From positions 1 through 64,000 of the IMG/VR virus record IMGVR_UViG_3300032116_000117: a stretch of 64,000 nucleotides of DNA; one strand, 5' to 3'. This DNA comes from a virus. A program made the position numbers and the translations under genes. Each line of letters starts with the position of its first letter. Within the stretch, counting starts at the first letter, position 1. The notes beneath the pieces are model-generated. The model made no database searches. It was not told the origin of the DNA and saw only the letters and a program-made list of their open reading frames with translations. Positions 12,236 to 61,986 of this stretch are shown piece after piece.

Positions 12236-12263
12236 ATTATACCTTGAGCCCAACGCAAGTCAA
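12236..12263 (-). promoter_or_regulatory. sigma70-like promoter of ssb
   Basis: On the minus strand TTGACT (12263-12258), a 16-bp spacer and TATAAT (12241-12236) precede ssb by 44 nt. The -35 box overlaps the stop codon of the dnaE 3' half. A match this close to consensus with normal spacing is unlikely by chance even in AT-rich DNA. Confidence 0.8.
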
Positions 12264-13825
12264 GCCTTCGGTATAAAAGTTTTTTCTATAGACAACGAGT
12301 CTTTGTCTTTTGATCTGTTTCCTTTAACAATGATAATATTGCCTAAAAATAATTGATTTCTATATTTCCTATACGCTTCTGGAAAGTATACTATACTGTC
12401 CAATGATGCTGTACCATCGTTCAAAGTTATGAATGCCATTTCTGAACCAACACTTTTGCCCTTCTTGGTTTTGACTACTCTGATATTTTCTATTTCACCA
12501 GCTAAAATAATATTATTATTAGATGAGCATTTATTGTTCTTAAAATCTTTACAGGATGAAGAAACCATACTAATATCATACATATCAACCTTTGAGCAGG
12601 ATATGGAGCATCCTATCAGCATATTTTCTGTGTCAGCCAGCCACTCTATAGTATCTTCCAGAGAATAGGGTGGTTTTTTTAATGATTCTATAAGATTCAT
12701 TATGGTCAATTGTCTTTTTGAGGATATTTTAGACGATGATACTAGCATCTCCAAATTTTTTTGAAGGCTTTTATCTGTCTGCAAAACTTTCTGTAAATTT
12801 TCTGTTTCTTTCGCAGTTAATTCATTAAAGATATTATATTCAAACAACATTCTATTTCTATGAATCTTCAAAAAATCCAACGCCCCTGATTGTATCAGAG
12901 CTTTTGATGCTGTGCTATTGATATGACTGAATAAAAATAGATATTCCATCCATGTCATTGTTTTAAGATTGAGTTTTAAGCTTTCTATAGTATTTTTTAA
13001 CTTATCAAAAGCTGATTTTCCAACACCTTTAATGTCTGTCAATCCGAAATAGATACATTTTTTATCTAGTTCAACAAACTCATTTACCATTCTTATATCT
13101 GGATTGCAAACCACAATATTCATTTCCGTAGCATTTTGAACAAGTTCCTTTATCTCCATTTGTGGATCAATTTTATCTTTTGCAAATCTCAGATAAGAAG
13201 CAAAAAATACTCTAGCATAATGTGCTTTGGCATATGCTGAAAGATACGAATTCATAGCATAACTAATGGCGTGGCTCTTGTTAAAAGAATATCTTTGGCT
13301 TTTTTCGATCCAATTGAAAATTTCCTCCGCTTGAGACTTGTTGATTGAGCCAACTTTTTCGCATCCATCAATGAATGTAATTTTTAATTTAGCCATTTCT
13401 TCTGGCTTCTTTTTGCCAATAGCTTTTCTTAACATATCTGCTTCTTGCAAATTGAATCCCGCAATTACTCTGGCTATTTCCATTGCCTGTTCTTGATATA
13501 CCATTTCTCCATATGTTGTTTTTAAAATGGGTTCAAGAGATTCGTGGAAATAATCAACTGTTTCTAAACCATTTTTTTTATCTATATAATGATTGGTAAC
13601 ACTTTTGCCATCTCTAATTGCTTCCAAACATCCAGGACGCATAATACTAATTAATGCTGCAAGCTCCTCGATATTTGATGGCTTCAATTTTTTTGCTATA
13701 CTTCGTCCTAATCTGGACTCTAACTGAAAACATCCTTTGGTGTTTCCAGCAGATATAAGATCCCAAGTCAAAGGACACTCCAAATCCATAAGCGCAATAT
13801 CTGCATTAAATATTATTGAAGGCAT
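12260..13825 (-). CDS. dnaE: DNA polymerase III alpha subunit, C-terminal half (split dnaE)
   Basis: The 521-aa protein matches the fingers and C-terminal parts of DnaE: AGNTKGCFQLESRLGRSI, ALISIMRPGCLE, VYQEQAMEIARVIAGF, NKSHAISYAMNSYLSAY, a helix-hairpin-helix (GLTDIKGVGKSAFDKL) and an OB-fold near the end (ILAGEIENIRV, AFITLNDGTASLDSIVYF). It lacks the PHP and palm domains, which are encoded at 14674-16551. Together the two halves equal one DnaE. Start ATG at 13825 overlaps the exonuclease by 20 nt. It should form the leading and lagging-strand polymerase by association with the other half. Confidence 0.9.
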   Translation of the reverse strand: MPSIIFNADIALMDLECPLTWDLISAGNTKGCFQLESRLGRSIAKKLKPSNIEELAALISIMRPGCLEAIRDGKSVTNHYIDKKNGLETVDYFHESLEPILKTTYGEMVYQEQAMEIARVIAGFNLQEADMLRKAIGKKKPEEMAKLKITFIDGCEKVGSINKSQAEEIFNWIEKSQRYSFNKSHAISYAMNSYLSAYAKAHYARVFFASYLRFAKDKIDPQMEIKELVQNATEMNIVVCNPDIRMVNEFVELDKKCIYFGLTDIKGVGKSAFDKLKNTIESLKLNLKTMTWMEYLFLFSHINSTASKALIQSGALDFLKIHRNRMLFEYNIFNELTAKETENLQKVLQTDKSLQKNLEMLVSSSKISSKRQLTIMNLIESLKKPPYSLEDTIEWLADTENMLIGCSISCSKVDMYDISMVSSSCKDFKNNKCSSNNNIILAGEIENIRVVKTKKGKSVGSEMAFITLNDGTASLDSIVYFPEAYRKYRNQLFLGNIIIVKGNRSKDKDSLSIEKTFIPKA

Positions 13826-14498: not shown

Positions 14499-14674
14499 GC
14501 TGTTTCTACTGTTACGTTCTCCAGTGGCAAAATCATAGTTTTTTCTTGAGTTTGGTTATTTATGGCATTATTTACATGACAGCAGCTAACTCTATCATCA
14601 TCTATTCTTGTATAGGAAATAGAATTGTGTATGAATTTTTCTCCAACCACAAGGTCTTTAAATTGCTTGTCCAT
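14495..14674 (-). CDS. small conserved-type phage protein, 59 aa, between dnaE halves
   Basis: ATG at 14674 overlaps the TAA of the polymerase N-terminal half (TAATG), has GGAG about 10 nt upstream, and its TGA at 14497-14495 overlaps the exonuclease ATG. The product starts MDKQFKDLVVGEKF and is a beta-rich polypeptide with a central CC pair. It resembles in layout the 82-aa protein at 50132-50380 (EELNSGDAF start), a common small-protein pattern in phages. Function unknown; coupling at both ends argues it is translated. Confidence 0.7.
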   Translation of the reverse strand: MDKQFKDLVVGEKFIHNSISYTRIDDDRVSCCHVNNAINNQTQEKTMILPLENVTVETA

Positions 14675-16551
14675 TAGTTTTCTCCTTTTTGTAAGAGTTC
14701 TTGAATAGTCATTATTTTATCTAACATTGCAATACCTAGAATATCAAATTTAATAATACCTATGCTCTCTAAGTCTTGCATTTCCATACCCGCTATGGTT
14801 TGATCGTTCCTATTATCATAGACCATTGGACACATTTCGCCAAGAGGTTTGGAACTAATAGCAACACCAGCAGCGTGTTTTGATTGGTTAGTTTTTGTGC
14901 CCTCTAGTCTAATTGCCTGTTCAAATCTTTTTGACAATGGACCTATTAATTCTCCTTTATCATCTATTGAGCACCATGGCGATAAATCGTCTTGATTATT
15001 CTCTAATGCCCATCGTATAATAGATGCTTCTCCGGTTTCCTCTTTCATTTCTTGTAGTTCATCTGCAATTTTAGCTTCATCCGGAATGAACTTAGTTATA
15101 TTGTTCATTTCATCAAATGTTATATTTCCATATACTCTTAACACATCTTTTAGTGCTCCCCTTCCTTTCATTGTATTAAAAGTAATCATTTGAGAAACCT
15201 TGTCTTCCCCATATTTTTGTTTTATATATGAGATAATATCTTCTCTTTTATTGATAGGCACATCTATATCTATATCTGGCATACTAATACGATCCTTAGT
15301 ATTTCTTCCAGCATTATAGAATCTGTCAAAGATCAAATTATATCTAATTGGATCTATTGCTGTTATTCCAACCAAATACGAAACCAGACATCCAGCAGCA
15401 CTGCCTCGTCCCGGTCCGGGTAGCCACTTATTATTCCTTACATAATTAACAATATCTTGTACTATTAGAAAGTAACTGCTAAGACCAGCCCCCTGTAAAA
15501 CATCAAGTTCGTATTTGATCCTATCAACATACTGTGTTTGTTGCTCTATAGGAACTATGTCTTTGATTTTATCTCTCCAGCCATTACGGCAAAGTTGTCT
15601 CAAATATTCTGCTTGATCAAAAGAATCTGGACAATCGAATTCTGGAAGATTCGGCTTCTGATTAATCTCAAAATTCTCACATAAACTATCAACAAATTGA
15701 GTATTTTCAATTTCTTCCTCTGTGTGCAAATTATTTATTTCTTCATTACTAAGTATATGGTAATTATCAGAGATAAAAAATGTGTCCATTCCAAAATTTT
15801 CTTTATTCAATATTTTAGAATTGACATCAATAAATGTGGTCTTTAAATTATTACACAGTAATACTCTTTGATCTATAGCATCTTCTCTTTCACAATAATG
15901 AGCATCTGGAGTTGCTATGACCTTTATCTTTTTTTGTTTGGCAATTTTTCTAATACAATCAGTTACATCTTTTTGAATAGGATTATGTTCCTGATCCATT
16001 AATTGGGCTTCTAAGAAAAAATTATCTTTACCAAAAATATTTTGGAGTTTATCAATAATTGGTATAGCATTATTTTCCCAATCGTTATTTATAGTATCGT
16101 TGGTCATAATTTTATTGGCCACAACCGATCCTAAGTGGCCAGCAAATCCTATTATATTTCCATCTAGTAGTTTGCCAAGCCTATCCAAATCCAATCTTGG
16201 CTTATAATAAAATAAGTCAGATCTATTTGATTCCGATATTATCTTAATCATCGTCTGCCATCCGGTATAATTTTTGGCTAAAATTACCAAATGACTTAGA
16301 TCTCTATTAGACGAGTCTTTTATTGATGCATCATTATTAGAGATATATAATTCGCAACCTAAAATGGGTTTAATGCCAGCAGACTTCATTGTCGAATGAA
16401 ACTTAACCGTGCCAGAGATATTACCATGGTCTGTTAAAGCGCACGAAGATACTCCTATTTTATTGCATCTCTCTGCTATTTGTTGAGGTTTGCTTAATCC
16501 ATCTAGCAAAGAATAATGACTGTGAACATGCAATGGAATATATTTTTTCAT
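14674..16551 (-). CDS. dnaE: DNA polymerase III alpha subunit, PHP and palm half (split dnaE)
   Basis: The 625-aa protein begins IPLHVHSHYSLLDGLSK, the PHP domain with metal ligands, and continues with ALTDHGNISG and GCELYIS. The palm has PGRGSAAGCLVSYLVG, then MPDIDIDVP at about residue 424 with the two catalytic Asp. The third palm Asp is in IIKFDILGIAMLDKI about 20 residues before the stop. So all three catalytic carboxylates are here and the fingers follow in a separate gene (12260-13825). No intein sequence is present at the end. It overlaps the 59-aa gene by 1 nt and the nuclease upstream by 4 nt. Confidence 0.9.
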   Translation of the reverse strand: MKKYIPLHVHSHYSLLDGLSKPQQIAERCNKIGVSSCALTDHGNISGTVKFHSTMKSAGIKPILGCELYISNNDASIKDSSNRDLSHLVILAKNYTGWQTMIKIISESNRSDLFYYKPRLDLDRLGKLLDGNIIGFAGHLGSVVANKIMTNDTINNDWENNAIPIIDKLQNIFGKDNFFLEAQLMDQEHNPIQKDVTDCIRKIAKQKKIKVIATPDAHYCEREDAIDQRVLLCNNLKTTFIDVNSKILNKENFGMDTFFISDNYHILSNEEINNLHTEEEIENTQFVDSLCENFEINQKPNLPEFDCPDSFDQAEYLRQLCRNGWRDKIKDIVPIEQQTQYVDRIKYELDVLQGAGLSSYFLIVQDIVNYVRNNKWLPGPGRGSAAGCLVSYLVGITAIDPIRYNLIFDRFYNAGRNTKDRISMPDIDIDVPINKREDIISYIKQKYGEDKVSQMITFNTMKGRGALKDVLRVYGNITFDEMNNITKFIPDEAKIADELQEMKEETGEASIIRWALENNQDDLSPWCSIDDKGELIGPLSKRFEQAIRLEGTKTNQSKHAAGVAISSKPLGEMCPMVYDNRNDQTIAGMEMQDLESIGIIKFDILGIAMLDKIMTIQELLQKGEN

Positions 16552-61415: not shown

Positions 61416-61430
61416 TGTTTACCTTTCTAA

Positions 61431-61503
61431 TAGGAGTGGTGGGAGTCGAACCCACACTGTATGGATTTTAAGTCCACTGTCTCTGCCATTGGACTACACT
61501 CCC
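61431..61503 (-). tRNA. tRNA-Leu(UAA) on a class I scaffold
   Basis: Acceptor GGGAGTG/CACTCCT, D arm GTCC-AATGGCAGA-GAC, anticodon stem GTGGA/TCCAT with loop CTTAAAA (anticodon TAA), variable loop ACAGT of 5 nt, T arm GTGGG-TTCGACT-CCCAC, discriminator A, no encoded CCA. Leucine tRNAs normally have a long variable arm; here it is short. It would read UUA codons, frequent in AT-rich genes. Confidence 0.9.
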
Positions 61504-61505
61504 AT

Positions 61506-61589
61506 ATGATAATCGACCACAACAATCAATGATTTGAGGTTGATTTTCTGTGTGCCTCTACCATTTAAACTGTTGTGATCGACTATCAT
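61506..61589 (-). ncRNA. structured RNA with 19-bp stem and anti-ribosome-site loop
   Basis: On the minus strand ATGATAGTCGATCACAACA (61589-61571) pairs with its partner (61524-61506): all 19 positions, two as G·U. In a plus-strand transcript those two would be mismatches, so the functional RNA is the minus transcript. The 46-nt loop holds a GTTTAAATGGTAGAGGC D-arm-like piece and AATCAACCTCAAATCATT (61545-61528), the complement of the ribosome site of 61601-61882 with one missing base. It ends 2 nt before tRNA-Leu. Function inferred. Confidence 0.6.
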
Positions 61590-61600
61590 TGGTTTAAAAA

Positions 61601-61882
61601 TCAGCCGTTAGCATGAGCCTTGATTCGACGAACAACCTCTGCCATAGCCTCTACATTATCAACCGTCTTGGTTGGCTTCGCACGTTCCATAGAGGGAAGA
61701 TCAATACCCTTGGCCTTTAGTGCTTCTTTGGTACGAGCATAACGAGCCATCGTACTAGCAACCTTTTGACCAGTCTTTGACGCAATCTCAGCATACGTCT
61801 TAGACGAATAAACAGCCTCAAGAAACTGCTCGTCGCTGCAACGAACACGGGTCTGCTTCTCAACAACATTAACTTCAGCCAT
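61601..61882 (-). CDS. small HTH-type DNA-binding protein, 93 aa
   Basis: ATG at 61882 has GGAGG 7 nt upstream; an in-frame start at 61906 is rejected. FLEAVYSSKTYAEIASKTGQ, KVASTMARYARTKEALKAKG is a helix-turn-helix-like helical pair, followed by a basic C-terminus with EAMAEVVRRIKAHANG. Strong promoter and ribosome site suggest a regulator made early. Its mRNA 5' region is complementary to the structured RNA just downstream. Confidence 0.75.
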   Translation of the reverse strand: MAEVNVVEKQTRVRCSDEQFLEAVYSSKTYAEIASKTGQKVASTMARYARTKEALKAKGIDLPSMERAKPTKTVDNVEAMAEVVRRIKAHANG

Positions 61883-61958
61883 AATCAACCTCCAAATCAT
61901 TTCCAATTTTATCTTTGCGAGTCAGTCGCTCGACTGATCCTCTCGCATCGACTACTTC

Positions 61959-61986
61959 ATTCTATCACACTGTATCGACTTGTCAA
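61959..61986 (-). promoter_or_regulatory. sigma70-like promoter of 61601-61882
   Basis: TTGACA (61986-61981), 16-bp spacer and TAGAAT (61964-61959), minus strand; shares TTGACAAGnCGATA with two others. The leader from about 61952 to the ATG is near 70 nt and carries the complementary ribosome site. Confidence 0.8.

Follow-up and report, generated by a model that had tools for sequence, protein, structure and literature searches.

Few cases of pairing between the 3' and 5' untranslated regions of one and the same bacterial mRNA have been described, and icaR of Staphylococcus aureus is the main example that we found. The long icaR 3' UTR carries a short UCCCCUG motif that has been demonstrated to pair with the Shine-Dalgarno sequence of its own mRNA, and cleavage by RNase III has been shown (PMC3868564). 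The phage locus described here resembles icaR in having a 3'-UTR motif complementary to its own Shine-Dalgarno sequence, and action in cis or in trans is open in the icaR case as well. The icaR gene codes for a transcription regulator, the phage gene for a predicted helix-turn-helix (HTH) protein. The phage locus differs in that the motif sits in a compact, covarying hairpin adjoining a tRNA, with another sequence and another host, and in that its pairing is predicted from sequence.

The hok message encodes a toxin, is activated by 3' trimming and is regulated by Sok, and its 3' part folds back on the translation start region. This 3'-to-5' long-range folding of hok mRNA is named in PMC3868564. 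Parts of the hok kind were not found at the locus studied here. In phages P1 and P7, the c4 RNA lies upstream of ant in the transcript. It is presented in PMC12197685, which cites Citron and Schuster (1990), as an antisense RNA with loops complementary to an RBS region and with a structure-dependent function. The present hairpin is likewise a phage RNA with a loop complementary to an RBS region; in contrast to c4, which targets another gene (ant), it is complementary to the RBS of its own gene and lies downstream of the target, and it gave no Rfam match to the c4 or P4 CI antisense RNA families. In autogenous translational repression of the T4 gp32 type, a phage protein binds its own mRNA (PMC535899). 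Feedback on a phage protein at its own message would be common to both systems, whereas the proposed repressor here is RNA. While the class of mechanism is known, the phage element, the RNA family and the tRNA-adjacent arrangement are undescribed in Rfam and in the literature searched: no phage element with such an arrangement was found in either, and no description of 3'-UTR/5'-UTR self-pairing in phages was found in that literature.

Layout of the locus and the encoded protein

The window, the whole 64,000-nt stretch of DNA that was analysed, comes from an IMG/VR phage record of 77.6 kb with an RIIA-like gene and genes for DNA polymerase, primase, helicase and ribonucleotide reductase. A promoter, a leader hairpin, a strong ribosome-binding site (RBS), a 93-aa open reading frame, a 3' hairpin and tRNA-Leu(UAA) follow one another on the minus strand (Table 1). 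The coordinates and sequences that an earlier note on this DNA had given for the RBS, the start, the antisense segment and the hairpin arms were all exact. Leader hairpins are similar in relatives, their aligned core consisting of five pairs with some covariation. The copy of tRNA-Leu(UAA) in the window is uninterrupted.

Table 1. Features of the HTH gene locus, with positions in the window
Feature	Position	Strand	Basis
Sigma-70-type promoter, TTGACA-16-TAGAAT, with embedded CGATA motif	61959..61986	-	kept upstream of the gene at homologous loci
5'-leader hairpin GCGAG...CUCGC, just past the inferred transcription start	61917..61946	-	fold
RBS, AATGATTTGGAGGTTGATT (61901-61883); conserved core GAGGUUGAUU at 61892-61883; ATG at 61882	61883..61901	-	
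Gene for 93-aa protein, predicted HTH	61601..61882	-	no significant PHROG/Pfam match
3'-UTR hairpin: outer stem of ~20 bp, internal loop, GAGG/CCUC inner helix, apical loop	61506..61589	-	fold, compensatory changes
Antisense segment against the RBS, AATCAACCTCAAATCATT; core UCAACCUC at 61543-61536	61528..61545	-	complementarity
GAGG of inner helix; local partner CCUC at 61536-61539; competitor of the RBS for CCUC	61555..61558	-	fold, covariation
tRNA-Leu(UAA); 5' end (RNase P site) 1 nt from hairpin base	61430..61504	-	

Searches of PHROG and Pfam with the 93-aa product returned only weak, sub-threshold matches, and no credible homologue was present among 50,697 phage records. An AlphaFold2 model made with 30 homologues has a three-helix HTH-like bundle and a C-terminal helix (mean pLDDT 83), and most matches in a PDB search were DNA-binding domains of the HTH kind (LysR, MarR, response regulators), with E > 0.2 for every match. 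From the modelled fold and the mostly-HTH matches it is therefore reasonable to regard the protein as a probable DNA-binding HTH regulator, with no family assignment. The host-type promoter, kept at homologous loci, is the sole ground for regarding the gene as putatively early. At one homologous locus (L166) the gene is frameshifted near the N-terminus, which may be a sequencing error; the hairpin and the anti-RBS loop are intact there.

The 3' hairpin is a conserved RNA structure

The 19-nt arms at 61506-61524 and 61571-61589 pair fully only as minus-strand RNA, as had been proposed. The minus-strand fold reaches -41.3 kcal/mol (z -6.85, 0 of 200 shuffles), against -28.7 kcal/mol (z -4.14) for the plus strand. 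Relatives were collected by five protein-based viral scans, one genome scan and pattern matches. Because many of the fetched loci were the same contig fetched repeatedly, the 367 loci with a usable homologue were treated as ~105 distinct RBS/3'-UTR contexts.

Three hairpin architectures occupy the same spot downstream of the gene. Type I (84 contexts, including the window) follows the pattern GAGG...(A)AUCAACCUC. Type II (L285, L294, L320, L391, L284 and L583) has a different stem and carries the anti-Shine-Dalgarno (anti-SD) loop, CAACCUCCAA, in a wholly apical position. Type III (eight contexts: L381, L207, L244, L248, L346, L580, L588 and L590) keeps the hairpin and has lost most or all of the anti-SD; its loop is like that of type I without CCUC, with UCAACC still present in L590. 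A hairpin-less outgroup (L280, L340, L282, L330, L332, L392 and L398) has the tRNA within a few nt of the stop codon, and the RBS spacers of the 10 hairpin-less contexts differ. Where the pattern GAGGCACA..CAACCTC was found with a surrounding stem, the HTH gene stood upstream; most hits of this pattern on viral contigs were due to chance. The MAG matches at L279 and L280 were not accepted as host identification, as both could be contigs of phages that were sorted into the MAGs during binning.

An 18-bp outer stem was recovered unguided by RNAalifold from 42 distinct type I hairpins. Over the stem and inner helix of these hairpins 94.1% of cells were paired, with slid controls of the stem at 51% or less. 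Compensatory changes in the arms were present among relatives, with double changes at 14 pairs and 115 cells changed on both sides, and none of 500 shuffles reached any of these measures. The stem is an RNA structure conserved across a broad group of uncultivated phages. One pair of the outer stem (columns 11/84 of alignment A2) is G.U in 28 of the 42 hairpins, otherwise mostly A-U and never G-C.

The hairpin model fitted to these data gave the window 83 bits on its minus strand against 22 on the plus strand, and it found a single locus in each genome carrying the hairpin; this one copy per genome in the carrier records speaks against a mobile or dispersed repeat. Apart from the tRNA, no Rfam family reached its gathering score, and the matches below it were at chance level. 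A terminator-like site, sought as a G+C-rich stem followed by a U-tract, was absent at 61506-61589; U-tracts do follow the stem in some relatives in which no tRNA adjoins it (L035, L218).

Extent and strength of the RBS complementarity

The match of 18 of 19 nt with one bulged G, on which the earlier note had built its proposal, is the duplexfold optimum (-22.1 kcal/mol, 0 of 200 shuffles); the longest ungapped Watson-Crick run in the window is 10 nt (16 of 3,000 dinucleotide shuffles). Ungapped runs elsewhere measured 13 nt in L306 and 12 nt in L375 (0 of 3,000 each), 10 nt in L378 (4 of 3,000) and 10 nt in L294 (25 of 3,000). The 8-nt run of L284 (306 of 3,000) was not significant, and runs in type III and hairpin-less contexts were mostly at background. 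The 18-nt complementarity is present in the window, but conservation covers a core of 8-13 nt, UCAACCUC and in many cases the longer CAUAAUCAACCUC, because the upstream half (AAATCATT with AATGATTT; AAUCAUU with AAUGAUU) is variable among relatives and constrained by a local stem, which largely explains the latter match. The complementarity to GAGGUUGA, which comprises the Shine-Dalgarno sequence and the spacer, runs on through the AUG in many relatives.

The description of the complement as lying in the loop holds for one part of it. Inside the 46-nt loop the MFE structure forms two local helices, AAUGGU/AUCAUU and GAGG/CCUC, so that CCUC and AUCAUU are locally paired and only AAUCAA is apical and single-stranded. 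Opening the antisense segment costs ~5-9 kcal/mol in most type I contexts. The net pairing energy after accessibility costs, computed for ungapped runs only, was -4.2 kcal/mol for the window and -5.5 to -12.6 kcal/mol for type II, and it came to ~0 for the UUCAACC clade (UUCAACCUC). It is marginal in some clades, and it is underestimated in those that pair past the bulged G because only ungapped runs were counted.

Conservation of the pairing and target specificity

Shuffled controls pair worse than the RBS and the hairpin, the duplex energy having a median z of -3.0 over 99 contexts; z is ~0 in most members of the hairpin-less outgroup. Across 53 type I pairs of RBS and loop, 87.4% of cells were paired, against 23-50% in slid controls, and double changes were seen in 11 cells where 5.9 were expected (3 of 500 shuffles). 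The pairing is kept among relatives, including two compensated changes: in two deep lineages, L375 (six fetched loci) and L378, the RBS reads GAGGUUUA and the loop UAAACCUC, a G/C to U/A change at one position. The genes of L375 and L378 are 77% identical and stand apart in the tree, and their placement as one clade was not rejected (AU p 0.108).

The RBS core GAGGUUGA, opposite the loop sequence UCAACCUC, is kept in 79 of the 84 type I contexts and compensated in two more, and it is kept in two of six type II, three of eight type III and none of the 10 hairpin-less contexts. For the association of RBS and loop, an earlier count that ignored kinship gave a Fisher p of 1e-11; tree-based independent-pair tests of the coupling had 1-5 usable pairs and were underpowered. 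Changed RBSs without compensation were seen in L341, L297, L285 and L284.

When the 1,489 possible start contexts of the 77.6-kb record were ranked as partners of the loop, the gene's own RBS came first (-22.1 kcal/mol). Second was a TTG that lies upstream and in frame at this same site, and the next unrelated start reached -16.3 kcal/mol. The sequence GAGGTTGATTATG occurs in six of 12 related records (up to 224 kb), once in each as the RBS, and its sole extra match in the 12 records is the complement of the loop. The idea of a loop aimed at many phage RBSs was rejected, as each genome offers a single best site. Over the whole window, sequences close to that of the loop were no more frequent than background.

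The hairpin and the tRNA

At nearly all loci with a tRNA close by, 0-8 nt (median 3) separate the hairpin base from the tRNA 5' end as placed by ARAGORN. At five loci (L251, L351, L035, L347 and L380) an inserted HNH-like gene separates the hairpin from the tRNA, and no tRNA was found at three others (L355, L218 and L284); the hairpin and the anti-RBS loop remain at all of these. Since the pairing is kept at loci with a displaced tRNA or none found, the element appears linked to the gene and not to the tRNA, and the same loci disfavour a hairpin that belongs to the tRNA. The inserted gene lies on the opposite strand and is HNH endonuclease-like by eye. Downstream of the hairpin, the tRNA-Leu(UAA) of many relatives (L135, L294, L374, L036, L299 and L264) appears to contain a group I intron (Rfam RF00028, 52-69 bits), which resembles the situation in cyanobacteria, where tRNA-Leu(UAA) also has an intron.

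A candidate feedback element and its alternatives

We consider it reasonably probable that the antisense hairpin in the 3' UTR gives negative feedback on the translation of its own gene. The gene and the hairpin likely share one transcript, because a promoter lies upstream, no terminator-like site follows the gene and the tRNA is immediately downstream. The hairpin would then make up the folded 3' UTR of the message for the HTH protein, with its apical core antisense to the Shine-Dalgarno sequence and spacer of the same message. Pairing, within one message or across two, would mask the start site and damp translation of the regulator. The GAGG/CCUC inner helix would hold the antisense segment half closed, so that pairing would nucleate at AAUCAA, which is exposed, and go on to open the helix. 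RNase P is established as the enzyme of tRNA 5' processing and, as the hairpin base adjoins the tRNA 5' end, its cleavage of the co-transcript at tRNA-Leu would leave the hairpin as the 3' end of the mRNA, which is probably made in this way. Masking and repression, feedback, action in cis or in trans and processing to a small RNA are all what we infer from the sequence and its comparison. A more elaborate version, in which the half-sequestered antisense is combined with an RNase P-made 3' end, so that tRNA processing would switch the feedback on, and in which the loop arose more than once in unrelated hairpins, is offered tentatively.

The hairpin might instead be mainly a 3'-end or processing structure, protecting an RNase P-made end, providing an RNase III site or, at loci with no tRNA behind it, forming a terminator-like end, with the anti-SD of minor importance. 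The closeness of the hairpin base to the tRNA in most loci and the long, uninterrupted stem are consistent with such a role, as are the U-tracts after the stem at several loci without an adjacent tRNA (L035, L218). Type III has the hairpin but little or nothing of the anti-SD, and the hairpin therefore has at least one other role. As the main function, however, a 3'-end structure seems unlikely: it leaves unexplained the complement of the own RBS in two differently built hairpins, the coupled changes of L375 and L378 and the fixed RBS spacer, and the hairpin is also present at loci whose tRNA is displaced or undetected.

We find it harder still to favour excision of the hairpin as a small RNA that acts in trans on further copies of the mRNA or on host mRNAs. 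The structure is stable and discrete (84 nt) with a natural 3' end at the tRNA, and within the phage it matches the own RBS best, but neither the 77.6-kb record nor the 12 related records yielded a further target with extended pairing. It is improbable, to a greater degree, that the apical sequence is a protein-binding site, for instance for the HTH protein itself, with the complementarity as a by-product. The gene product may bind nucleic acid, and bases beyond the RBS complement (GAGGC, CACA) are also conserved, partly in type III too; however, a protein site fails to predict the RBS covariation, the type II loops and a match that reaches the spacer and start codon. Chance complementarity of a strong Shine-Dalgarno sequence with a C/U-rich loop is highly improbable, for although any gene with GGAGG matches any ACCUC and near-matches to the loop sequence are at background across the window, the shuffle controls, the conservation in ~90 contexts, the compensated changes and the absence in outgroups speak against it.

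If translational feedback by the 3' hairpin is correct, the locus represents an evolutionarily conserved self-pairing system with natural variants in which the pairing is compensated, rebuilt (type II) or lost (type III); with so many natural variants the rules of self-pairing would be directly testable. Rfam would gain a family that it now lacks, and the processing of a tRNA might prove to be linked to the regulation of the phage gene beside it.

Other features of the record

The exact motif TTGACAAGNCGATA together with a good -10 box is common to three minus-strand promoters, at 59436-59409, 61986-61959 and 62773-62745, which precede the RIIA gene, the HTH gene and an Ogg-HhH-like gene, respectively. 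The motif is also found upstream of the HTH gene at homologous loci. All three are probably versions of one early promoter whose spacer contains CGATA as an operator-like element. The gene for the DNA polymerase (phrog_405) comes in two minus-strand open reading frames, 12260-13825 and 14674-16551, that lie ~850 bp apart, which could reflect an intron, an intein or a true split.
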